DNA of 64,000 nucleotides from Telopea speciosissima (Eukaryota > Streptophyta > Magnoliopsida > Proteales > Proteaceae). A model generated the notes under the pieces. The model had not been told where the DNA came from. It did no database searches and saw only the letters and a list, made by a program, of their open reading frames with translations. The position numbers and the translations under genes were made by a program. Of the stretch, positions 4,701 through 61,480 are shown piece by piece; within the stretch, counting starts at the first letter, position 1; every line of letters begins with the position of its first letter. The stretch is taken from the NCBI RefSeq assembly GCF_018873765.1, contig NC_057924.1, positions 8,742,001 through 8,806,000 on the forward strand, given 5' to 3'.

Positions 4701-5023
4701 GCCAAAACTAACCAAAATATAATACCAATTATATTATCTACAACCCAATAAACATCAAATAATACAGGATTATATAGGGGTTCAGCTTTTGCCTTTGCTT
4801 TGGCCCTTGGGTAAGAATTGGGCTTGGGAGGGTGTGCCGGTGTGGGCTAGACCTAATATTTATCATATGTATTTTTTATTCATATAATAGATAGATAAAT
4901 GAGTAAAACAAAACCACCTTACCCAAATTTTACCCTTTACCTAAGTGGAGGGAAGTCTTGTCTTTAGCCCACCCATTTATTTACCCTAAAGCTGCATTTG
5001 TGTTGCTTTAAAATAGTTAAAAA

Positions 5024-5116
5024 AGGGTGTATCCAGTGCACAAGGCTCCCGCCACTGCAAAGTCTGGGGAAGATTATAATGTACGCAGACTTACCCCTGC
5101 TTTCGCAGATAGACTA
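5024..5116 (-). mobile_element. Au-type SINE fragment
   Basis: The plus strand reads GGGTGTATCCAGTGCACAAGG, then CTCCCGCCACTGC and GCAGACTTACCCCTGC. This is the reverse complement of the 3' half of the Au SINE and matches the fuller copy at 27650. The promoter half is missing or too diverged to see. Confidence 0.65.
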
Positions 5117-29100: not shown

Positions 29101-32100
29101 GATACCATGTATCCTACTCTCTTGATTGATGATTTCGTAGGATCAAGTTGGATGTTGATCGCGCGTTGAAGATCCTCCCGTTATACAAAACTCGAGGGCG
29201 AGTTTTTTCCTAACAAGGGATGAATAACACAGGAGCATGATCACCACCATTGGATGTGGTTTGATAGTTTTGACAGTATTTGGTTGTGCTTTTGTTTTAA
29301 ATGTTTTTATTTGTAATGGGCTCAATAATAAAGCACAAATTTTAGAACCATAGGGAATTTAGCCTTTTTTAAATGTCTTATAGGAGGTCCACAATATGTG
29401 GAAGTCGATTCAATTTTTATATAAAGAGAAGTAATCCCCCCACCCCTAATCAAATGGAATGAAGTCAGATTATTTTGTTTGAAATTGATTTTGGATTCTC
29501 TCTTCCTTTCCAATAGTGCTATACTCTCTCTCCCCACAATTCCTTTTATTCCCCTTCCCGCTCCTCCTGAGACATCTCATTCTGTTGGCTATTGCAGTGC
29601 TGGGGCAGACCTGATCTACCTCACATTCTGGTTAATAATTTGCCTGGGAACTAGTCTGCCTCTGTGATTACCTTTTGGGTTATCAGACTGCATCAGGAAT
29701 ACAAGTACATTTTTTTTTATTTGAATAGAAGACCAAAAACAATGAATGGTGATCCTATACTGCACCAAAGGAAAAGGAATATATATTAAAAACAGAAGTT
29801 CAAATATTGTACCACATTCAATGTCACCAAAGAGTGCATCCATATCAGCACTAAGTATCCATAATGTTAAATAAGCTCTTGATGGAATGTGCTGAGAAAA
29901 GATATATGTTAACCAAGCTTTTAATTAGAGGGGGGGGGGGGGGGAGTGATAGACATTATTCAGAAGAAATATGGCGGCACATGTGAAAATCCAGGCCCTA
30001 GAGGTTAATAGTCAAGGTTTTAAGTTCATTCACCTAAGTATAGTTACAATTTTGAGAAAGAAAAAGAGTAAAACCATGCAATAAATGATATTCCTTCTAT
30101 TGAGGACAATAAGGTTAAGTCAGAACCTGGGCTGCGGAACTCTCTTTCAGCAACACGAATGCCTGGAGGGCATGATTTGGCACTGAAGGTAAGGCCACTG
30201 CAGTTTCCTCAGTGACACAAGGTTTTGTTTCTGAACCAACACTGGAATTTGAAGAAAAATACACCCTGGAAATGCAGAAGAAAGAAAAGTCAGAAAGATA
30301 TGCCTTTTCCTATCACACAGAATCATGTTAATTTGTTACTTGATAATTCAATATAACATAAAATTAAGATTGCTTCTTGGAACATCTTAACAGATTTTAT
30401 AAATAAGGTAGAAGATCCAATCAGATATGGAAGCATAGAATTTCCAAATAACATAGACTTTACCCCAAAAAATACCTTCCTAAACATCCATAAATAACAC
30501 ATGTCAACTGTGCCTCAACTACATTTTTCACCATCCTATTCCATTATTTTCCAAAGCTGTTGCTCCATACGTAAAATGAGATCAAGTCTTTACTGAGATT
30601 CAGACACTTGGGTAGGAAAGCAAGACTCCTTCAACTCGAAGGAAATTTTCTTTATCATGAAGATTGTGATAGGGCAGGAAGCTGTTGTTCCATACCTGCT
30701 GATGAATTGAATTGGCTGGGCAGGATTCATAGGGACTCTTCTGTATTGCAGTTGCTTAGCCACCTCTGTGGATCTTTGAGGCTTCGGCTCTTTTTTTGTT
30801 GTTATTGTACACAATTATATCCTCTCTTTTGCTGTATTAACAATAAAATCTTTTTCTTACCTACCCCTTGTCCCCTCTCCCAACCCCAAAAAATGCAATT
30901 TACAGAATGCACATTTCAATAGTCTGGTCCAACCGAGTTCACTCGACCATTTTATTTCCCACCATGTGCAGCTCCAAGTGCAAATGTTGACATAGAAAAC
31001 TTATAAAAAAATACACATAAGACTATAATAAAGAAAAAGTATAGCTCCCACAAAAGATGTCTCCTGTTGTTTCATTTTCGTTTTCTTTTTCTTTTTCTAT
31101 TTTAATAATAAGGGTCTGCTACGGTTAATGTTTGAGTTAAAATAATACCGCAAGCGTATGGGTCAATCGTAGCTACGGGTCGAACACGAGGAGATATACG
31201 CCACTCTATTTAACTAACTTAAAAGTAATGCAAAGTGAACCAAATTAAAGTGTTAAATTAAACTAATTAAATTAATAAAAATTAATGCATCCTAACTCAT
31301 AAGCATCTAACAAAATTAAGGGATTAAATTGGTGTCCTAACACATGAGCATCTAACCTATCAGACTAACGCAAATTGAAAGGAATAAAAAAAAACAGCCA
31401 CACATAATAACCATATAAAAAGGAATAAGGGAATAAAAGTGCATCCACAAACCACAACCATATAAAAAAATAAAAGAAATAGAGGGAGAAGAAGAAGAAG
31501 ATAGAGAGAGATAGAGGAAAGGGAGAATGAGATTAAGGGTTTAGAGAATGAGATACCTTGATGTGTTTGAATACTTGAATAAACTCACCATGGCTTCCTC
31601 TTCTAAATCTCCATGTCTTGTCATCAACATAGGAACTTAGACTTAGGAAGCTTTAAACTATAACTATTACAACCATTAAACTAGACTTATGAAATCAAAA
31701 CTAAGAACTTGAAATCAAAACTAAGAACTTAAGCCAAAAATAGGAAAGAAGAGAAAATTTCACTAAGTGAATGAAGTAAAAATTACACTAAAAACTGAAT
31801 TAAAATTGAACTAGAAACTAACTAAAAACTGAACTAAAAACTAACTTCTTACAACCCAAAGGGCAAGGGGTATTTATAGGGGGAGAGAAGAGAAGGGAGA
31901 AGAGGGAAGTGTAGGAGAAATATTCCTAAGAAAAGAGAATATTCTCTTCTCCTTCCTCTTTTACAATGCCTTGAATCCTAAGAAAAAGAAAAAATAGAAA
32001 GAAGAAGAAGAGAAGATTGTTTACATAGACCTTCTATTTACAGAAAAGTAAACTTCCACCTAACAAGTCTTCGCTTTTCTTTGTAGATATCTTCTCTAAG

Positions 32101-35100
32101 AATAAAATCAAAGCATCTTTGATTTTTCAACTTTCCATAGGTAAGAGAATATTTTTCAAAATAAGTCTATCCCAAGTAGAATTCAGAGTGCCCTTGAGAA
32201 GTTGGAGGAGGAGAGAGAGTAAGGGTGATGACTAGGATTTCTTCAAGAATAAATAAAATACCCATTCTATCATTCAGGAAACGTGGAGCATGGGATGCTT
32301 ATATAGGCCTCACCATTGTGTTTCTTGCAAAAATCACCCAAAATAGACCCAAATTTCGTCCAATTTGGAGTTCGGGAGCCCAAGATATCTCAAGTTGAAG
32401 TTGGACTGTCCAGAGCCCTCCAAATGGAATCTTTCGGTACAAGAAATGTAACTTCTAATAATTCTGTTAAGGTCCCTACAATCTGAAATTTCGCTTCACT
32501 TTGTCCCCAGCCGACTGTCAATAATTACAAATAAACCCCTATAGACCATTTTCGTGTTTCGTTCGAAACGGCCATAACTCTTCGTTTCAACTCGGAATCA
32601 TGTGCCGTTTAAACCGTTACGAAGCTGACTCGATGGGCTACGCATCCAAGCCATTAACACCTTTAAACACCTTAAAAACATTTCCTTAGCATCATCTCCT
32701 CCATTTTCACAAGAATTCACCTAAAACACAAACGCACAAGAAAGCAAGTAACTTTGTCCAATATGGTAAAATGTATGTTTTATGCCCTAAGATTTCACAC
32801 ATAAATATGCTCATCAGATTCCCCACACTTGAACGTTACTTGTCCTCAAGTAAAGCAAAAGAAAACTAATCTAGAATGCGGAAAATCCAAACTCACTTTC
32901 GTAGGAATCACGGTTGCACTTAGCATGTACAACAAGCCTTTGAACCCCTAGGTTACCCCTAGTGGACGAGTTGTGTCTCGTGGGTGTTTGCGTGAATATA
33001 CACCCAAAATTCAATTGTAAATGAATCTGCAAATTTTAATCATAGCATAAGTAGGGACGGTGTACATAATCCCAAAAAGTGTTCAACTAAAGATCAAGGA
33101 GCCAAAGGTTCCCCACACTTGAATTTTATCACCCCACATCAATTCAAGTAACAAGTATGCATCAAGTTCAAGGGATCTCCTTATATTTTTCGAACACTAC
33201 TCACCTTCAAGTAAACCCCCATAGCATCGATGGAACCAAAGACTTAGGCATTGAGTATTGTTGACCATATTTTTTTTTTTTTTTAGGCATTAAGGCAAAA
33301 GTTTTTTCTTTCTCAACCACAAACTCTATTTCTACTCCACTCTGTTCTCTGAATGACATGGTGGAGCATACACTGACACCCAAATACTTGGTAGCTCGAT
33401 TTTTGCATATATCCATAAGACATTGAGACATTGATGCAAGAGTTTTTTTTGAGTTTCCTTCCAAGGAATTTCGATCAAGTCACCCCGCTTCATGAGGCAC
33501 GATGCCTGTCTAGTCCCAAGGAATTCCACTTTCTTTTTCGTTCCTTGTTTTTTTCTTTTTCTTTTTTTATTCACTTCCACTTTCATGCCTTGCCTTGCCA
33601 CAAACAAATTGGTCTCAACTACTAGCCAAAAGATCAAAGGGTCCATAAAACACAGAGAGGAATCTAGCCATCAAATGAAATAACGCTTATATTTTTAATT
33701 CAATCCCTCTCACGGATACAAACCAATTACCGTCCTTGAAAAGGGATTTTTATTATTTCGCATGCTAGGACACCTAATTCCCTCTTTCTCTCGTTTTGCA
33801 ATCAAAGAGACATATGCACAAAATCAAACTATTGTCACAATCAAAATTCACCAATTAAGCCCAACATCCCCCCCACACTTAATTCATGCAGTGTCCTCAA
33901 TGCATGCATAAAAGAAAAAATAAGCACAAGGGAGGAGATGAAGGGGCTTACCGGATATAATCAACAAAGAGGATCATGAAGAGTCATGAGCTCTACAAAA
34001 AGTGTTAGGAGCAGACGAAATCTCAATCCATGGCCGATAAATGGAGAAATAGCTTGAGACCCGAAAACACTCGACCATGAATTTTAGTAAAGCGAGAAAT
34101 AATATGGAAGTTAAGCACAACGAGAAATATTCAATAGAAAAATCTATCCTCATGGGACAGTGGAAAATGAAGGCATTAAAACTCAGACCATAAATTCTTC
34201 CCTTCTCTCCCATTTGCAATGTAGAACACCTATCATTCTTTGAAAAATCAATAAAAAACGGATCACAATAAGCATAAAAAGGATTATGAATAACCTCATC
34301 TAAATAATCATCAAAAATTGGAGGCTTACTCAAATCAATCCTAGCAATACAACTATCCGCTCTTTGCATAACTTGGTTTGCCAAATAAGAATCATGGAAA
34401 TATGCTTGAAAGACATTATGACTAACATTGTCCTCCTCAATAAAATCGTCAAACCTAGGAGGTTTGGACAAATCAACATGTGAGACAATGGAATCCTCAA
34501 AATGACAATTATCTAAGTTTTCCAAAGAGAGAGGGGGAGATCGAATTTCCTTGGTTTCTATGTTATCATGAAAATCTGATTCTAAATCAATAAATTCACT
34601 AGGCTCACTAAAATCAGAAATTTCAGGCAAAAAGTGGACTTCCCCAGGTAGCTCATCAAACCTCACTTCACTAATATCTTTAGGAGAATCAATCTCAACA
34701 AATAAATTTTCGTCAAAAGCATCTTGTTGGGAGTGACTCTCATTAACCTCAAATTGGGGTGGTGGACTTTCAATATCATTAAAGCTGGGGATGGGGCGGT
34801 TGGTGACTAGGTAATGTACCGTTTCCTCCTCTTGCACCATGGTTGCTCGGTTGAGAGAGTTGTTTCTCCATGGTATTTTGGCTTGTTGTGAGAAGGTCTA
34901 TGTATTTCTCAAGCTCATTCTCCGGCCTCCTCACCCATGTTTTGAAACTCAAGGGGTTGGTGATATGGTTTAAGGAGAGGTGGCCCATTGAGATTTAATG
35001 GAGGATTGGGCATTGGAGGACTAAACTGACCATGATATTGGAAATTGGGTGGTCCAGCTTGGTTATTCCATTGATCCCACTAAAATCGGGATGATCACTC

Positions 35101-38100
35101 CACCCCTGATTGTAAGTGCCAAAAGAATTGTATTGAAATTGAGGACTCACATTCTCATCACCATAGCTACCCCCATAAAGATTAGGGCATCCTTCCATAA
35201 TATAGATTGTGCGGGAAGTGACCAATCAAAATTTCCCAAAGCCCATAGTTGGGTTGGGGAGCAAAATTGTATTGGGGTGGTGCAAAATTGTTCTTTATCT
35301 CACCACTTTTGGCTTCCCTAACTGTTTAAACATTTCCTCCAAAATCATGGTTGCCTTAGCATAGGTCCATCTTTCCCCCAAAGTCTTATATGAAAGTGTA
35401 TCTCCCATTATTCTAAATTAACCACCTATCCCAAATTGAGGTCTCCCATAAAAAAAAAGTTTAAAGAAAAATAAAAGACTAGAAAAAAAAAAATACTAAA
35501 AACAAGAGGGAGCCCAAGGTAGATAATGCATCTATCCCTCAGAAATCGAAACAATGGTTCCAAAGCTGCAAGGTTGCCATATAGGTTGTGATAGAAGGGA
35601 ACCCGTATAGTCTTCACGAGCCACCTACGGCGACTCCAAATGGATTCGATGTAGGGTGGAGGACTACTATACGTTTATGTTTCCAAAACTCTCACTATGT
35701 TGCTTTCCTGTTATCAAGAGTGATCACCTCCAAAGATAAGTCACATGCCAATCCAAACCACCCAACGAATCAAGGGGCACCAAGATTGGCTGGGTTTGGG
35801 CATATGAAGGACTTTAGATTGAGCGCACACTATTTGAAACAGAAGAGTAACAAGAAAAGGTTTTCAAAAACTTTTTTTTTTTTTTTTTTTAAAAGAAAGA
35901 GGAGAAAGAGGAGAAAGAGAAGAAACTAAAGCACTTGAATTACTTAAAATCAAAAAATAAAGTGGTCAATAATCTCCCGCAACGGCGCCAAAAACTTGTT
36001 TGAGTTAAAATAATACCCAAGCGTACGGGTCAATCGTAGCTACGGGTCGAACACGAGGAGATATACGCCACTCTATTTAACTAACTTAAAAGTAATGCAA
36101 AGTGAACCAAATTAAAGTGTTAAATTAAACTAATTAAATTAATAAAAATTAATGCATCCTAACTCATAAGCATCTAACAAAATTAAGGGATTAAATTGGT
36201 GTCCTAACACATGAGCATCTAACCTATCGACTAACGCAAATTGAAAGGAATAAAAAAACAGCCACACATAATAACCATATAAAAGGAATAAGGGAATAAA
36301 AGTGCATCCACAAACCACAACCATATAAAAAAATAAAAGAAATAGAGGGAGAAGAAGAAGAAGATAGAGAGAGATAGAGGAAAGGGAGAATGAGATTAAG
36401 GGTTTAGAGAATGAGATACCTTGATGTGTTTGAATACTTGAATAAACTCACCATGGCTTCCTCTTCTAAATCTCCATGTCTTGTCATCAACATAGGAACT
36501 TAGACTAGGAAGCTTTAAACTATAACTATTACAACCATTAAACTAGACTTATGAAATCAAAACTAAGAACTTGAAATCAAAACTAAGAACTTAAGCCAAA
36601 AATAGGAAAAGAAGAGAAAATTTCACTAAGTGAATGAAGTAAAAATTACACTAAAAACTGAATTAAAATTGAACTAGAAACTAACTAAAAACTGAACTAA
36701 AAAACTAACTTCTTACAACCCAAAGGGCAAGGGGTATTTATAGGGGGAGAGAAGAGAAGGGAGAAGAGGGAAGTGTAGGAGAAATATTCCCTAAGAAAAG
36801 AGAATATTCTCTTCTCCTTCCTCTTTTACAATGCCTTGAATCCTAAGAAAAAGAAAAAAATAGAAAGAAGAAGAAGAGAAGATTGTTTACATAGGCCTTC
36901 TATTTCTAGAAAAGTAAACTTCCAATTCAACAAGTGTCTTCCTTTTCTTTGTAGATATCTTTCTAAGATAAAATCAAAGCATCTTTGATTTTTCAACTTT
37001 CCATAGGTAAGAGAATATTTTTCAAAATAAGTCTATCCCAAGTAGAATTCCAGAAGTGCCCTTGAGAAGTTGGAGGAGAGAGAGAGTAAGGGTGATGACT
37101 AGGATTTCTTCAAGAATAAATAAAATACCCATTCTATCATTCAGGAAACGTGGAGCATGGGATGCTTATATAGGCCTCACCATTGTGTTTCTTGCAAAAA
37201 ATCACCCAAAATAGACCCAAATTTCGTCCAATTTGGAGTTCGGGAGCCCAAGATATCTCAAGTTGAAGTTGGACTGTCCAGAGCCCTCCAAATGGAATCT
37301 TTCGGGTACAAGAAATGTAACTTCTAATAATTCTGTTAAGGTCCCTACAATCTGAAATTTCGCTTCACTTTGTCCCCAGCCGACTGTCAATAATTACAAA
37401 TAAACCCCTATAGACCATTTTCGTGTTTCGTTACCGAAACGGCCATAACTTCTTCGTTTCAACTCGGAATCATGTGCCGTTTAAACCGTTACGAAGCTGA
37501 CTCGATGGGCTACGCATCCAAGCCATTAACACCTTTAAACACCTTAAAAACATTTCCTTAGCATCATCTCCTCCATTTTCACAAGAATTCACCTAAAACC
37601 TGAAACGCACAAGAAAGCACCGAGTAACTTTGTCCAATATGGTAAAATGTATGTTTTATGCCCTAAGATTTCACACATAAATATGCTCATCAGTTAATGA
37701 TCTGAGTACTCCTCTCCCTGTCTCATGCTTCGGTTTGGCTTGTCATATTAGCATCAAAATCCTATTCAAAACTCTTCCTTTCAATTTTTTACAATCTAAA
37801 TGTTGGAAACGAATGCACAATCACAAGGTAGAAACCGAGCAAACAATCACACACAACACGAAGAATTTATCGTGGTTCAGCACGAATGCCTACATCCACC
37901 CGAGATAACCAGAGAAATTTTCACTAACCAGAAAAAAGCTCTACACCACTTCCCACCTCACAATGTGATCTCCCTTGCTTGTGTCTAGGGTTTGCCCCAC
38001 AGAAACAACATATAAGAAACCCTAATTGCCACACAATTACATTACTAACCATATAAATGTAATAAATCCAAAATTCAATCCGATATATAGAAGCTCAATA

Positions 38101-38825: not shown

Positions 38826-39023
38826 GATGGAATCGTCGTTCCTCCTGAAATCCTAGAGAAGTAATTGGAAGATTTAAGGAGAGAATGAGAAACGCCTCGG
38901 AAGTACGCAACGCGTAAAGCCGTAAAGTGAGAAGACTAACGGCAACGATACAATCATAGAATAGAATAAGGCGGTTTCGCAATAGAGTTAAAAAAAAGGA
39001 GAAGATTGGATATTTCATATTTT

Positions 39024-40694
39024 GGGTAATTTACACATACCACCCCTGAGGTTTACGAAAGGATGATTTTACCCCAGTTTTGGAAAATTCTGCGTACCCT
39101 CCTGAGATTTACAAACGGTGACAAATAAACCCATTCCGTCAGTTTATGACTAACACTGTTAAAATCAAAAGGTAAAGTGACAAAAATGCCCCTTCAAGAA
39201 AAGAAAAAAAAACTGCAACTCATCTTCCCCAAATCGATTTGGGGAAGATAAGTTGCAGGTATCCTTGTAAGGAACACCATGGAACTGATCCTGATTCACT
39301 CTCCTTCCTTTCCCTCTTCCATTTGCTTTAGGTTTTAACCCATTTGTATCTGTGTTTCTAGCTTTTGCTTTTAACTCTACGATCAGCTTTATTTCTGTTC
39401 AGAATCTAGGGTTTGTTAATTGTTACCGTCTTCAAAACTGCAATTTAAGTTCAAAGAGTAATAACTAATGGGATTTTATGCTGCTTTGATTAGGTTAAAA
39501 AATTCCGGATTCATGAGATAGAGTTGTCATTCATGCAAGGCGCTGAAACTACGAACGATGGGGTGGATTTGATCCTGTATCGAGCGCAAATGTGAAACCT
39601 CCCGGAGTTGAGTTGTGGGCTGTCTTCGATGTCCCCAAGATCAGGTCGATTCAACCTGAAAAAATCTAACCCACACCTTCTCGGGTCCCTTCTGTGCTTC
39701 GATTAACTTCTATGTTCGCACAATTTCCTCCCCATCTCCTTCTTCTCCGCTCGGGTTTCCTCTTCTTCTTCCTAATCTTCTTTTGTTTTTTCTGCTCCAT
39801 ATTTTTTTGCACCACAGCCGACAATGGATTTCAGAGAGCTTGAAAAAAAATGATGGCAGCCAATGGATTCTGATTCTGTGTTGGGTTTGGAAAAATGAGA
39901 ATAAAAGAAAAGAAATAGGGATCCGATGGTTATTGGGAGGGAAAATGGAAAAGGAAATCAAAGACATGATGGGATCAGAAATGATAAATTAGTTGAGGAT
40001 GGGTGTGGTCATGGCTGGAATTCAATTTGGGGTTTTGCTTAGACAAGGATGCGGGTTAGATTAGAAGTGAAAAGAAATGGAGAGGAGAATCGGTGATGGT
40101 GGGATGAGGGTTTTTAGAATGAAAATGATAAAAAAAAATGAAGAGAAAAGAATAGGGATGAAAGGAGAAATAGGGGTTAGTGGAGATGATGGCGGTTTTA
40201 GCAGAGATGGGTTTTGAGAGAGGGTCGGTGATGGGGTTTCGGAAATGGAAGATGTATTTGCTTTTGGACTTGGAATCATCTACTGCTTATGCTGCTCTAC
40301 ATTGGAGCTTTCGACCATTCTCAGGTACCCTTAGATATGGTGATCTGCCACGGGAGGTTGTTTTTACTGAGAACCTAACTCCCTGGTTGAAGTTGCTCCC
40401 TTGTCGAGATAAAACTGGGCCTGCTGTTCTAATGGACAGACCTTCTATCTATAGCCTGCAACTCATCTTTCCCCAATCGATTTGGGGAAGATGAGTTGCA
40501 GGTTTTTTTTTGTTTTTTTGAAGGGGTATTTTTGTCACTTTATCTTTTGATTTTAACAGTGTTGGTCATAAACTGACGGAATGGGTTTATTTGTTACTAT
40601 TTGTAAACCTCTGGGGGGTATGCAGAATTCTCCAAAACTGGAGGGTAAAATCATCCTTTCGTCAAACCTCAAGGGTGATATGTGTAAATTACCC
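39024..40694. mobile_element. MULE 2, Pack-MULE carrying PIG-T gene pieces
   Basis: Inverted arms of about 235 bases start GGGTAATTTACACATA and end TATGTGTAAATTACCC. The 9-bp target duplications TCATATTTT (39015-39023) and TCAGATTTT (40695-40703) differ at one base. Each arm ends inward in its own 46-nt palindrome (39213-39258 and 40456-40501) centred on ATCGAT. The interior carries two stretches of a PIG-T gene (see that entry) separated by about 570 bases of other origin. No transposase is present. The element lies 198 bases upstream of the tail-anchored gene's start codon. Confidence 0.9.
39494..40455 (+). pseudogene. Captured PIG-T (GPI transamidase subunit) fragments
   Basis: PIG-T/Gpi16 is an ER-membrane subunit of the complex that attaches GPI anchors. 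The first piece (39494-39705) begins after an acceptor-like TTGATTAG and reads VKKFRIHEIELSFMQG, then, one frame over, NYERWGGFDPVSSANV, KPPGVELWAVFDVPK and later HTFSGPFCASINF. The second piece (40277-40455) reads [20 protein letters not shown], then [20 protein letters not shown] and [16 protein letters not shown]. These are consecutive parts of the plant PIG-T N-terminal half, here split by about 570 bases of unrelated sequence. One base is missing in the GRW codon run near 39541 and another frame change follows FDVPK. Flanking intron sequence shows capture from genomic DNA rather than from mRNA. It cannot encode a working subunit. Confidence 0.88.
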
Positions 40695-40913
40695 TCAGAT
40701 TTTTTTGTATTTAGCAAGAGTGTTAATCGGGTCCGGTTAATCGGTTCGGTTCAAAATCGATTGAAAATATAATGTATAAAATAAAACCGATCCATTTATT
40801 AAATGGTTTTAATATCTCAATCGAAACTAATTGATAAAGAATTATGATTAAGTGGTATTATTAGTTTTCAGTTTTGGTATTCGGTATCGTTGTCTATTCG
40901 AGTTGATAATTTT

Positions 40914-41444
40914 GGGTTCAATTGGGAATGAACCTATTTTTGTTGAACTTGAACCCCTTCATCTAGTCTCAAACTGTTATTTAAGAAATAATAATAGATT
41001 AAATTAATTTACATGGCATAAATTTACTACTACAAAACATTATAAAGGATATACGAAATGTCAAGGCTAATAGGTTTTTTAATCAATTTAGGGTTCAATT
41101 GGGAATGAACCTATTTTTGTTGAACTTGAGCCCCTTCATCTAGTCTCAAACTGTTATTTAAGAAATAATAATAGATTAAATTAATTTACATGGCATAAAT
41201 TTACTACTACAAAACATTATAAAGGATATACAAAATGTCAAGGCTAATAGGTGTTTTAATCAATTTAGGGTTCAATTGGGAATGAACCTATTTTTGTTGA
41301 ACTTGAACCCCTTCATCTAGTCTCAAACTGTTATTTAAGAAACAATAATAGATTAAATTAATTTACATGGCATAAATTTACTACTACAAAACATTATAAA
41401 GGATATACGAAATGTCAAGGCTAATAGGTTTTTTAATCAATTTA
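40914..41444 (+). repeat. Tandem array, 177 bp x 3
   Basis: Copies start at 40914, 41091 and 41268 (period 177). They are almost identical; differences are single bases such as ATACGAAATG / ATACAAAATG. There is no open frame. The near-identity means the amplification is recent. Confidence 0.95.
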
Positions 41445-41891
41445 GTATGAATAATTGGTTAAAAATCATATTGGTTCTAAATTCTAATTGGTTTTAATCG
41501 ATTCAAAACCAATGGTTTATTGGTTAAAAAATGAATCAAATTGTTTAACAAATTATTTTATTTTTAAACCAAAACCAAACAAATTAGTAAACGATTTATT
41601 GGTTCCGTTATAAACATTCGATTTTGATTTTCAGTTTGCAATTGACACGATTATGTATTAGAAAACATAACCTTCTTTTGATGGTCCATTATCTTATTCC
41701 TAAAAGATATTTTAATCAACATTTTACTCCCAAAAAAAATCTTTTAATCAATGCTAGAAAAGGAATTTTAAAATAACTTGAAATTGTTTCTTGTGAAGTC
41801 ATTTTCAAGAATCGTTGTCTTACATGTCTCTCCCAAAACATATGTAAAAGAATAGGGTTTTACCCTTATTAAAAATAATGTTTTGGAAAAA

Positions 41892-42010
41892 AGACCTCTG
41901 TCCAGGAGTGTGGCCTACGCCAGCACTCCCATGAATCTATCTCTCTCCTCCCCATGTGAAAAGACACATCTTCCATCTTGTTTTAAGGAGGAGAGGTTTG
42001 CACTCCCATA
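41892..42010. repeat. Dispersed repeat, copy 1
   Basis: It shares GCCAGCACTCCCATGA, a CTCTCTCCTC block and TGAAAAGACAC with 60477-60620. Both look like one arm of a foldback MITE; CACTCCCAT recurs inverted or nearby. Superfamily unknown. Confidence 0.5.
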
Positions 42011-44337: not shown

Positions 44338-44346
44338 GATCATGTG

Positions 44347-45756
44347 CGATTTGGCTCCTGTCCTGCAGTGGCAGGAGCTGGAGCATCAGCAGTTCAGCAC
44401 CCCCCTGAGATCTCTCCACCTGGCCAGCAATGAATCCAACGGCCATAATTAATAAACTTTATTTTTTACCCATTTGTTTCTCTCACCCGACCAGACTGAG
44501 TATACCCGACCCGATGTGTTTCTCTTCTCCTTTCTGGTTTTCTCCATTTTCCGTGGTTGACGTCGTGCAATGGCGACCGACGAAGGACGACGGCGACGGG
44601 AACGGCAATGCTAACCAGGTATTTCTCTCTCTCATTTGTGTTCTGAAACCCTAAAACTGGTACATTCCAGTTGAAAAACTCATACCATTTTTTTGTTGCA
44701 GAAAACAGAAAATAAAAATCAAACCCAAAAGTTTGAAAAAACAGAAATTGATCGAAGAGAAATCCGATTGTTTCCGCTTCATCGCTAGAACTGAAGATGT
44801 AGGTGATGAAGTGATAGCCCACACCATTGAATTCATCCCGGTGTTACAAAAATTGTGATCAAAGGGAATAATCTTCTCGAATTGTATCTAGACGAGCTCG
44901 AGATCGATCTGTGGAGATTCAGGCTTCCACCATCGACAAAGCCAGAAATTGCTAATGCTGTTTATGTTGATGGAGAACTAATCGTGACTGTCCCCAAGGG
45001 TGTCAGCAGCGACGACTCCGATGATGATGCGAATGAATAAGAAGAAGAAGGTTGGGGTGAGGGAAATGGGGATCTCAGAGGTGGAGTGGGTATTCTTGTC
45101 CTTGTACAGTAATTCTTCTTTCCATTCCCATGTCTTCAAAACAACAATAATTCTGTTTAAGATCTTGGGCTGAAATTAAAAAATTGCCTTTGATTGCTTT
45201 TGATGGTTGATGCTGTTAAATTTTCTGTTATTTTCTCTTCTTCTTCTTCTTGATCTTTTTTGTCTGTTTCTTACATCCTGCATCTCTGTGCGTCAATTTT
45301 AAAGTAATTATGTTGGGGGAAGATCTGATTGAATTCTTCAGAACTGAGCTACGACGGCACGGAAACCCTTCCTAATCCGTCAGGCTGATCTTTCATGGAC
45401 TGTACCCAGTTTTAGGGTTTCAAAACGCAAATGAGAGAGAGATAGAAAAGGAGAGAGAAGAAAACCTAGTTCGTCGTCGCCATCGCCAGGTGCAGTAGGT
45501 CGAGTTCAACAGGGAAGATGCAATGGCTAGAGTTCAACCAGGGAAGATGGAGGTTCACAGCAAAAGGGGCAGAGAGAGGAACTAGGGTTTTGAGATTTAG
45601 TCGGGTCGGGTTTATCAAACGAGAGGGTGAGAGAGGAAGATGGGTTAATATTGGACTCTCTCTTATGACCGTTGGATGCACCCCTGGCCAGATGGAGAAA
45701 TCTCAGGGGGTGTTGGACGCTCCAGCTCCCGCCACTGCAGGACAGGAGCCAAATCC
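44347..45756. mobile_element. MULE 3, Pack-MULE carrying an HSP20-like gene piece
   Basis: Inverted arms of about 120 bases begin CGATTTGGCTCCTGTCCTGC and end GCAGGACAGGAGCCAAATCC. The 9-bp target duplications GATCATGTG (44338-44346) and GATCACGTG (45757-45765) differ at one base. The TIR sequence differs from those of MULEs 1, 2 and 4, so this is a separate family. The interior carries an intron-containing fragment of an HSP20-like gene (see that entry). No transposase is present. Confidence 0.88.
44571..45040 (+). pseudogene. Captured HSP20-like gene fragment
   Basis: A first exon piece ending at 44618 reads WRPTKDDGDGNGNANQ. An intron with GT/AG ends (44619-44701) follows. The second exon (44702-45040) reads KQKLIEEKSDCFRFIARTED, then after a frame change HPGVTKIVIKGNNLLELYLD, then ELEIDLWRFRLPPSTKPEIA and AVYVDGELIVTVPKG, with an acidic SSDDSDDDANE tail. 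The end of the alpha-crystallin fold (FRLP...GELIVTVPK) is recognisable. I believe the parent belongs to a plant group of HSP20-like chaperone-superfamily proteins with little-known roles. The retained intron shows capture from genomic DNA. One frame change near 44845 means it is probably not functional as the parent protein. Confidence 0.7.
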
Positions 45757-45765
45757 GATCACGTG

Positions 45766-47026
45766 CCAACTAATATTTGGCAAAACCGATGTTTGATGAT
45801 TTTTTATTTAAAAAATCAATTTGCCATTGTTTCCTAAGAATAACCAGTAGAATGGGGAAATCTACATGATTAGCCACATTTGACTTTTCTCTTCTCTCCA
45901 CCCCTGTATTTTATTTTACCTTTATACCCCTAAATTCTTCCAACTTCTTCTTCTTCCCCGTGCCGCCACTCCCATCCCGTTACCATCCCACCTCCCCTCC
46001 TCCTCTCCTCCTCTTGCAACTTCTTCTTCTTCTTCTTCAACCGCCTTCATCCCACCCCTAATTTCCTTTTTTTTCTTTTTTCTTCCTTTTTCCTCTGATC
46101 ACCTGCGCAATGGAAACAGAAATAGGTATCTGTGGGAGTCAATTCTGATCCTTCGGTTTCGTATACGCCAGATTCTTAATCTTTGAAAACGAAGGGATGA
46201 ACAAATGAGACGGAAAAGTTATTCTTTCAACCATCTTTCCTCATCCGAGGTGAGCGTCGGGTTTTGTGGAACCCTCTTAAGTTTTTTGCCGTCCAACGAG
46301 GAAGATGGTATTGAAGAACCGGCATAAGGTTGATCAGCCCAGATGGATAAAGTACTCGAAATTATAAAGAGAGAAAAAGACGAAGATACTAAAAAATGGA
46401 GATCGATGATCGATCCTTGTATGGATATACATTTTTTTTTTTTTTTTCTTCTGTTTTTCTTCTATTTTTTAAAATTGTCGAACTCTTTTTCTTTGGACTA
46501 AGGAGACGAATTGGTCGTGGTGACGGCTGTTAATGTGATTGTTACCCATTTGAGAAGAAAGACATGAAATCTAACAGAATATCTTCAGTCCCATGGATTC
46601 CAATTTTTCCCCTCTCCTTACAATCTTGGCTGAATCATTTCCCTTTCGTAAGAGTGGGATTTCTGGTTTCGTTTATGTTCTTGTTTTGGCTTTAGATCGA
46701 AGCGATGCAGTTGACTGTCGCTGCTAGTTGGAATCTGTAGTGTTTGGCTCTGATGTTGACGATGGGTGTTACAGGAGAAGGTGTGGAGCGGAAGGGATTG
46801 TAGGGGGTTGCAGAGGGATGGGGATTGTAGGGAGTTGTTTGTGTTAGAAGAAGAAGAGGAGTGGGTGGGGGCAAAAATGTCAAAAAATATAATATAAATG
46901 AACACTGAATACTGTTTTGGATAGTTTTGTAAACTCAAACTCAAAACAGTGTATTTTTGTTCATTGAAACAATGAGTGGTCAGTTTTGTAAATACAAACC
47001 TAATACTAGCTAATCAGGTAATTTTC
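45766..47026. other. Intergenic stretch, possible unrecognised transposon
   Basis: It contains pyrimidine-rich blocks (CTTCTTCTTC) near 45950 and a purine-rich block near 46850, perhaps two ends of a diverged inverted-repeat element. I could not pair the ends or find a target duplication. No gene was seen. Confidence 0.35.
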
Positions 47027-59040: not shown

Positions 59041-61480
59041 TCTTTAAAAGGACGACTCCCCCCACATATTCAATTACTAAATAGCCCTTATTCCCATAGA
59101 AAAGGTCCAGGCGTTACCACTGTCAAATGACCAATTTAACCTTATAAAATGTGTCACTCTCGCCGCTTCCAAAATACAAACCCTAGTCCTTTAATTAAAT
59201 AGTGTTAACATAGTATGGATGGACAACTCACCTTTCCCATCCTTGTCTTCTCACTAAATATAGGTTTTTTGGGGGTGGGGGGGGGTATTACATGACCCGC
59301 AAAATAAAGAAATGAAGGGGTAGTTTGGTAATTTGAGTAGTTGAGTGAAAGAGTATACGATTGACGACAATGGAGAGTTTGTTACGGCTTGAAGGATGAT
59401 AAAGTAAATCGACAACTTCCTTAAAACTGGTAAGATTTTATGCTGAGTAATGCTCTACAGGATAAACTCTTGCTTTGCATGGTAAGTGTGACTCAGATAG
59501 AGAGAGAGAGAGAGAGAGAGGGGAATCGTGACAGTGATAACAGCTTGGCAGAGGGTGGGGAGAGCTAAGCTGTAAGCAGTAGCAGATCTCTGGCGCATTG
59601 CTCAGTTTGACAAGGTGGTGGAAATTACGAAGTTTTCATCTTAAAAAACTAAAGTCCAAACTCATATCCCCAGGCAAACAACGAAAAGGACATCGCCGGT
59701 TTTCTTTACCTTCTTGGTGTCCAAGGGCAAAAATGGTAGTATAAAATTTATCTTAGATACAATGATGTCATTACCATTTTTTTATTTATGGTCCAGGTAG
59801 CAAATTAACAATTTATTGTAATAAAAAATGTTTATATGAGGATATTCCTTTTCTTATTTAATATTTAACCTTTCTTTTATATTTATTTAATTTTCTTTCC
59901 TTAAGCATATGAGAATGAATTTATTTTTAATTAATTCACCAAAAAAAAGAGTTTATTTTTAATTAAAAAAAGAATTCTTTGAGCAAACAGGAGTATAGAG
60001 GTCATTTCATGTGAAGAGGAAGAGAGAGACAAAGAGCACTAGTTTTTACCCTTTACATTTGACTTAGAGAACATTTTCCTTTAATTTATGGGAAAAATTT
60101 CGCTACACAACCTTTAGAAATATATATGTCCTCTCATATAATCTCTCTATTATGAATCATTTTATAAATGTTTTGATACCAGTAGAAAGCAATGGTTCCT
60201 CCATTGACATATATAATATTAATATAATGGAGTAACATATGGATCTTCTCCCTTAATTAATATTTTTTTCTATAAATGATTATTTACAGATACCTAATAA
60301 TAATTTTCTGGGAATGATTTCCCCAAACTACCAATATGGGAGGGATTTTTCATGTCAAATCAATGGTGGTGAATATAATAATATATCATATAGGAAAAAA
60401 TAAATAATAAAATAATTTATATGAAAAACAATGGTACACTGACAACATGGGAAACTTGTTCCCTAATTTTCTTTCGAGAAAAAGTTCTTTATTCGGGAGT
60501 TTGATCTATGCCAGCACTCCCATGAGTCTCTCTCTCTCCTCTCCATTTGAAAAGACACCTCTACCCTCTTATTTTGAGGAAGAGAGAGATAGACACATGA
60601 GTCCGGAGAGAGAAGTACTTCCCTTTTCTTTCTTTGAAATTTTCCTATAAATGAAAGATCCTTTAGTACATACATAGCCAATATTCAAATGCGTAAGAAT
60701 AGTTTCACTCTTGTGATAGTGTGTGATACTCTTTTTGGTAATTAGGAGAAAACAAAAGGGTGTTATTGAAATTTCATAGGTTAAAACAGTGTTTATGAAT
60801 AGTAAACAAACAATAACCAAAAGAGAGTTCCAAGAATTATGATTAGTATAAACATTATGATTACAAAGCTTGTTTAAAATGGCGTGTTTTACTTATCTTT
60901 TTCAAATTGATTGAACGTAAAAAGAGGAAGGCATAGAGGGGAGAGTTTAGAATATAATCTTTTAATTCTTTAAGGTGGCAATCACTTTATCTTTCTTTGT
61001 GAACACTTTCCATGGTTTCTCTAATGACATTTCGTACATGGGATTGATTGAAAACCCATGCGTTTGTCTGTGACATGGCCTACCTATCTCCTCAATCCTC
61101 ACCAAAATTTCAAAAAAATGGAATTGGATCGGCGAAATCGGTTATGGTTAATCTTGATTTCTCTCATTTTGGAACACTTGACTCATCTTCCATTTCAATT
61201 GATTTGGAATGAAATCGGATCAGAATCAACTGGACCGAACCTGGTCCTGATTCAGATTCAAAGTTTAATAATCTTGGTACTCACCAGTCACCATCAAGCA
61301 TGGAACGGCATGGTCTTGAAACTCGAGATCTATGATGGGGGTGTGACTCAACTAATTCCGCTTAATTTAAGGAAAGTCAAGGTTCTGAGTGGAAAGGATT
61401 TCTTACCCCCGGATAATAAAATGGAAAGGATTTGATTGATTTGATCCCCAATTTCGAACTTTTTGGAGTTGTTCTTGTAC
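59041..61480. other. AT-rich intergenic stretch
   Basis: It holds a (GA)n microsatellite near 59500, a poly-G run near 59275, and copy 2 of the dispersed repeat at 60477-60620. No gene was recognised; the open frame at 61058 has no domain. Confidence 0.45.
60477..60620. repeat. Dispersed repeat, copy 2
   Basis: It shares GCCAGCACTCCCATGAGTC, CTCTCTCCTC and TGAAAAGACACC with 41892-42010. Both appear to be the same unclassified MITE. Confidence 0.5.

Follow-up and report, generated by a model that had tools for sequence, protein, structure and literature searches.

A very probable Pack-MULE with a broken PIG-T gene fragment in Telopea speciosissima

An element of about 1.7 kb at positions 39024-40694 of the window (the whole stretch of 64,000 nucleotides analysed) consists of two inverted arms around PIG-T (PF04113, Gpi16) sequence that is cut by other DNA (Table 1). 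Judged by this anatomy it is very probably a Pack-MULE, namely a non-autonomous Mutator-like element (MULE) with a broken piece of a PIG-T gene. It combines long terminal inverted repeats, a fragment of a host protein gene and a target site duplication within the range of 7-12 bp that excerpts of PMC9168764 give for MULEs. The Pack-MULE definition, as it stands in an excerpt of PMC4858842, excludes a transposase fragment; none was found when the element, translated in all six frames with X for stops, was searched against Pfam, which returned only Gpi16 at E values up to 0.1. Arms, duplication, PIG-T content and the lack of a Pfam transposase all support the initial annotation, which had read the element as a Pack-MULE with a chopped PIG-T gene. 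The arms are assigned to a MULE family on the basis of their anatomy. As a Pack-MULE the element is an ordinary instance of a well-known kind; its less usual feature, absent from the initial annotation, is that each arm terminates on its inner side in a hairpin-like palindrome.

Aligned end to end in inverted orientation, the arms are identical at 218 of 236 aligned bases with four gap columns, and 15 of the 18 mismatches are transitions. Compared with the window by blastn, the element gave this inverted match (E 2.9e-90) and otherwise matched only itself, with no further copy. A 19-base pattern of the arm end, allowing up to 3 mismatches, has no occurrence in the window outside the two arms (chance expectation 0.00). 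The flanking 9-mers, TCATATTTT and TCAGATTTT, agree at 8 of 9 bases, and 8 of 62311 window positions at equal spacing score as high or higher, the real site itself being counted in. A match at 8/9 rather than 9/9 counts against the Pack-MULE reading. The arms described in the initial annotation are hence inverted copies of each other on alignment, and its 9-bp duplications are present at that length but as an imperfect pair.

Table 1. Features of the element and its flanks (window coordinates).
Feature	Position	Strand	Remarks
Left target site duplication copy	39015-39023	.	9 bp, TCATATTTT; null from window positions
Left terminal inverted repeat	39024-39259	+	236 bp; starts GGGTAATTTACACATACC; alignment
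Left palindrome	39213-39258	.	46 bp; inner end of left arm; 44/46 positions self-complementary
TATCCTT, perhaps end of upstream PIG-T exon	39260-39266	+	7 nt, too short for proof; inferred from sequence
Probable complete PIG-T intron	39267-39493	+	227 bp; GTAAGG ... AACTAAT (39463) ... TTGATTAG; 41% T
PIG-T coding, 5' piece	39494-39710	+	VKKF ... CASINF; two frameshifts and a stop; Pfam, PDB, translation
Segment splitting the PIG-T coding sequence	39711-40269	.	559 bp; CT-rich start, AG-rich after; no recognised origin
PIG-T coding, 3' piece	40270-40454	+	ends LMDRPSIY; frame open; Pfam, PDB, translation
Right terminal inverted repeat	40455-40694	-	240 bp; alignment
Right palindrome	40456-40501	.	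46 bp; inner end of right arm; 42/46 positions self-complementary
Right target site duplication copy	40695-40703	.	9 bp, TCAGATTTT

The PIG-T coding sequence lies in two pieces. When the six frames of the element were searched as they stand (X at stops), one frame matched Gpi16 in two stretches (E 1.2e-19) and another gave Gpi16 at E 0.0069, short of the cut-off. The 3' piece alone matches PF04113 positions 145-201 (E 3.4e-16) and, in the PDB, the PIG-T chain of 7w72 (E 3.7e-10), which we take to be the human protein. The 217 bp of the 5' piece carry frameshifts at 39541-39546 and 39637-39639 and a stop at 39657-39659. Two of its frames match PF04113 positions 80-111 (E 2.1e-4) and 108-135 (E 2.7e-4), each singly below the curated cut-off; its first frame, 33 residues to the first frameshift, gave no Pfam match when searched alone. 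One part of the 5' piece searched alone against the PDB did not find PIG-T but one lectin (E 0.0019), a match that was spread over repeats and was set aside as chance. With both pieces joined and changes of frame allowed (residues taken from the sequence, the three frames chosen by us), 134 residues match PF04113 positions 62-201 in one stretch at E 7.8e-42, and the same reading matches chain T of 7w72 at E 2.7e-23, with FCASINF|LESS aligned over FCASLNF|IDST without a gap at the break. Since the profile match runs in one stretch across the break and the 7w72 alignment is gap-free there, no codons seem to have been lost between the pieces. The collinear profile and structure matches bear out the assignment to PIG-T and the order of the exon parts given in the initial annotation, whose borders (39494-39705 and 40277-40455) are corrected here to those of Table 1.

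The two pieces are indeed split by DNA that has no Pfam match, as had been proposed; its length is 559 bp rather than about 570. This segment shows no match at or near the cut-off, whether it was searched in four pieces or within the six frames of the whole element. It is 73% C+T at 39705-39840 and 69-71% A+G at 39841-40270. A Helitron or CACTA origin was considered, but their motifs were not seen by eye. The simplest reading is that the segment was captured as a second piece of DNA.

Two other origins of the segment were weighed. It could be a parental PIG-T intron, in which case the element would be a plain genomic copy rather than a chimera, and a break without apparent coding loss is what an intron would give. 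The splice sites available do not suit it, however. Within 39700-39730 the sole GT stands at 39714 (TAT|GTTCGC); within 40235-40290 the sole AG stands at 40250-40251, and the first conserved codon follows 18 nt later. Because splicing between them would insert 7 residues at a position where the 7w72 alignment is gap-free, the segment fails as an intron. Furthermore, 39841-40270 is about 70% A+G with 25% T, against 41% T in the upstream stretch, and we regard the intron reading as quite improbable. Another transposon inserted into the finished Pack-MULE would likewise explain why the segment sits inside one coding stretch with no evident loss. Against such a nested insertion, no inverted pair of at least 14 nt was reported at the borders of the segment, the word shared by the borders is at most about 4 bp (ACTT, by eye), Pfam gave no match and blastn found no second copy in the window; this origin we consider unlikely.

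Upstream of the first PIG-T codon the element carries one probable complete intron, recognised by its splice and branch motifs. GTAAGG begins at 39267, after 7 nt that lie inward of the left palindrome, and TTGATTAG ends at 39493, with the first PIG-T codon immediately following; GTAAG[GT] inside a 16-nt stretch is found at 0.3% of window positions. This is the sole supported intron; on the right the insert ends within coding sequence. The initial annotation had spoken of carried introns that show a genomic source. The plural is unsupported, and one probable intron with splice-like ends and T-rich sequence stands. From this intron we infer that the PIG-T source was genomic DNA.

We propose that a stretch of PIG-T, comprising a single intron and roughly 134 codons from the exon(s) that follow, was taken from genomic DNA into an element with arms of this family. 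A further 559 bp from elsewhere would have entered the PIG-T coding sequence; the simplest route is that the template was switched a second time, either during the same gap-repair event or during a later one. The composite would then have inserted at its present site as one unit, giving rise to the 9-bp duplication. Gap repair would be the presumed route of capture, and the position of the duplication outside the arms suggests that the composite moved after capture. Excerpts of PMC8277862 describe gap filling after breaks in an element with terminal inverted repeats (TIR) and suggest that secondary structures could provoke such breaks, and an excerpt of PMC8903248 describes fusion of neighbouring insertions; as far as these excerpts go, both are compatible with the anatomy of the element.

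The PIG-T part covers positions 62-201 of the 571-position PF04113 profile and lacks the intact reading frame of a functional gene, having two frameshifts, one stop and the 559-bp interruption. Given these disabling lesions and the lack of a transposase recognised by Pfam, the element is predicted from its sequence to make no PIG-T protein and to be unable to move by itself. It might nonetheless be transcribed and give rise to small RNAs with an effect on the parental PIG-T gene. The 3' piece retains 185 bp of open PIG-T frame, and transcribed Pack-MULEs that possibly make small RNAs are described in part of PMC8277862; we think such an effect very unlikely.

The element was also compared with sequences beyond the window. 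The arm and palindrome patterns gave 0 matches in viral contigs, the arm pattern gave 0 matches in prokaryote genomes and the element had no match among plasmids in distant mode; these are non-plant collections, which say little on a plant family. The PIG-T peptide gave 329 pattern-matching stretches and 0 relatives in prokaryote genomes. In viral contigs it gave 21 such stretches, of which one (L001) passed tblastn. This candidate relative was dropped, its 78-bp match (5001-5078) lying antisense inside a 987-residue ORF that resembles a phage DNA polymerase, a label read from the translation and not from a search. Because no plant collections were among them, nothing is drawn from the viral, prokaryote and plasmid searches. 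Rfam and tRNA scans of the window gave 0 and 0 matches.

The surroundings contain further repeats and reading frames. About 200 bp left of the element a 128-residue reading frame starts on the minus strand near 38826; it has no significant Pfam match, and that it is a gene is a guess. About 210 bp to the right of the element, 40908-41445 holds three 177-bp tandem copies (97% matching), and a dispersed 108-bp repeat occurs at 41888-41995 and 60479-60586 (81% identical). A second pair of inverted arms delimits 44348-45757 (75% identical over 167 columns, with an inner further pair 89% identical over 54 columns). Its flanks, ATCATGTGC (44339-44347) and ATCACGTGC (45758-45766), agree at 8/9, there are two extra bases at the right end, and it is likely a second MULE. 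An interior frame of it resembled an HSP20-type fragment on reading, with a Pfam E of 0.064 that is short of the cut-off. Direct repeats of about 1.7 kb at 31129-32817 and 35997-37693 (97.9% identical) probably mark an LTR retrotransposon whose LTRs enclose only about 3.2 kb. It is perhaps non-autonomous, since the sole listed ORF of at least 140 residues between the LTRs (33974-34840, minus strand) has no Pfam match. Four other ORFs of the window, among six proteins searched together against Pfam, match xyloglucan endotransglycosylase, PPR, fasciclin and DUF538, which suggests plant DNA.

In common with the plant Pack-MULEs described in excerpts of PMC3310237 and PMC4858842, the element has long inverted arms, a duplication, a fragment of a known gene and no transposase; in contrast to what those excerpts describe, the captured gene here is PIG-T and a palindrome closes each arm. 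No literature pairing Pack-MULEs with GPI transamidase was found, which is weak evidence, as single captures are, in our judgement, seldom named in main texts. With the chimeric MULE-derived genes of two or more parents in an excerpt of PMC4858842 it shares DNA apparently from two sources between the arms, but no gene can be recognised in the second source here. Excerpts of PMC8277862 treat Pack-TIRs, among them fly Ssk-FB4, that arise through gap filling or fork stalling and likewise show capture inside a TIR element; those are animal elements, however, and the excerpts do not mention capture borders that match palindromes. Nor do PMC3310237 and PMC9168764 mention palindromes in their main texts. 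No MULE arm with a palindrome at its inner end was seen in a literature search that covered a part of the relevant papers, in part as excerpts, and the arm and palindrome strings gave no match in the literature.

The two palindromes were the sole matches when the window was scanned for 46-bp stretches in which 20 or more of the 23 pairs match; the scan excluded stretches that did not contain all four bases or in which a single base filled 25 or more of the 46 positions. Folded as single-stranded DNA, the left palindrome reaches -20.2 kcal/mol (z -8.97) and the right -23.6 kcal/mol (z -10.62), and none of 200 shuffles reached so low an energy for either. Their outer halves are identical (23/23) and the inner halves, on the insert side, deviate from them at 1 and 2 positions. 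The captured DNA starts directly or up to 7 nt after the left palindrome and stops directly before the right one. The single copy seen is consistent with two readings. The palindrome may be a plain part of the arm in this element family. A more speculative view, which we hold to be unlikely, is that the palindromes mark the capture site, a former single central hairpin having been doubled by the capture of PIG-T. The ancestor would then have been a fold-back element whose two arms met at one palindrome of about 48 bp, and a break at the hairpin, repaired by copying PIG-T DNA, would have left the insert flanked by a full palindrome at either end, as is the case here. Such a duplication may predict that the palindromes are more alike than the arms; at 45/48 against 218/236 the values do not separate the two models.

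Uptake of host DNA by MULEs is described as not understood or perplexing in excerpts of PMC3310237 and PMC8277862. Within a large class already known, the useful point of this element is that palindromes sit at both borders of the captured insert, to within about 7 nt. Uptake of host DNA by MULEs would become testable in a family whose capture border carries a hairpin, through comparison of empty and filled copies in the host genome. If capture did occur at the palindrome, families with such a centre would take up host DNA repeatedly at a single point that is fixed and predictable.
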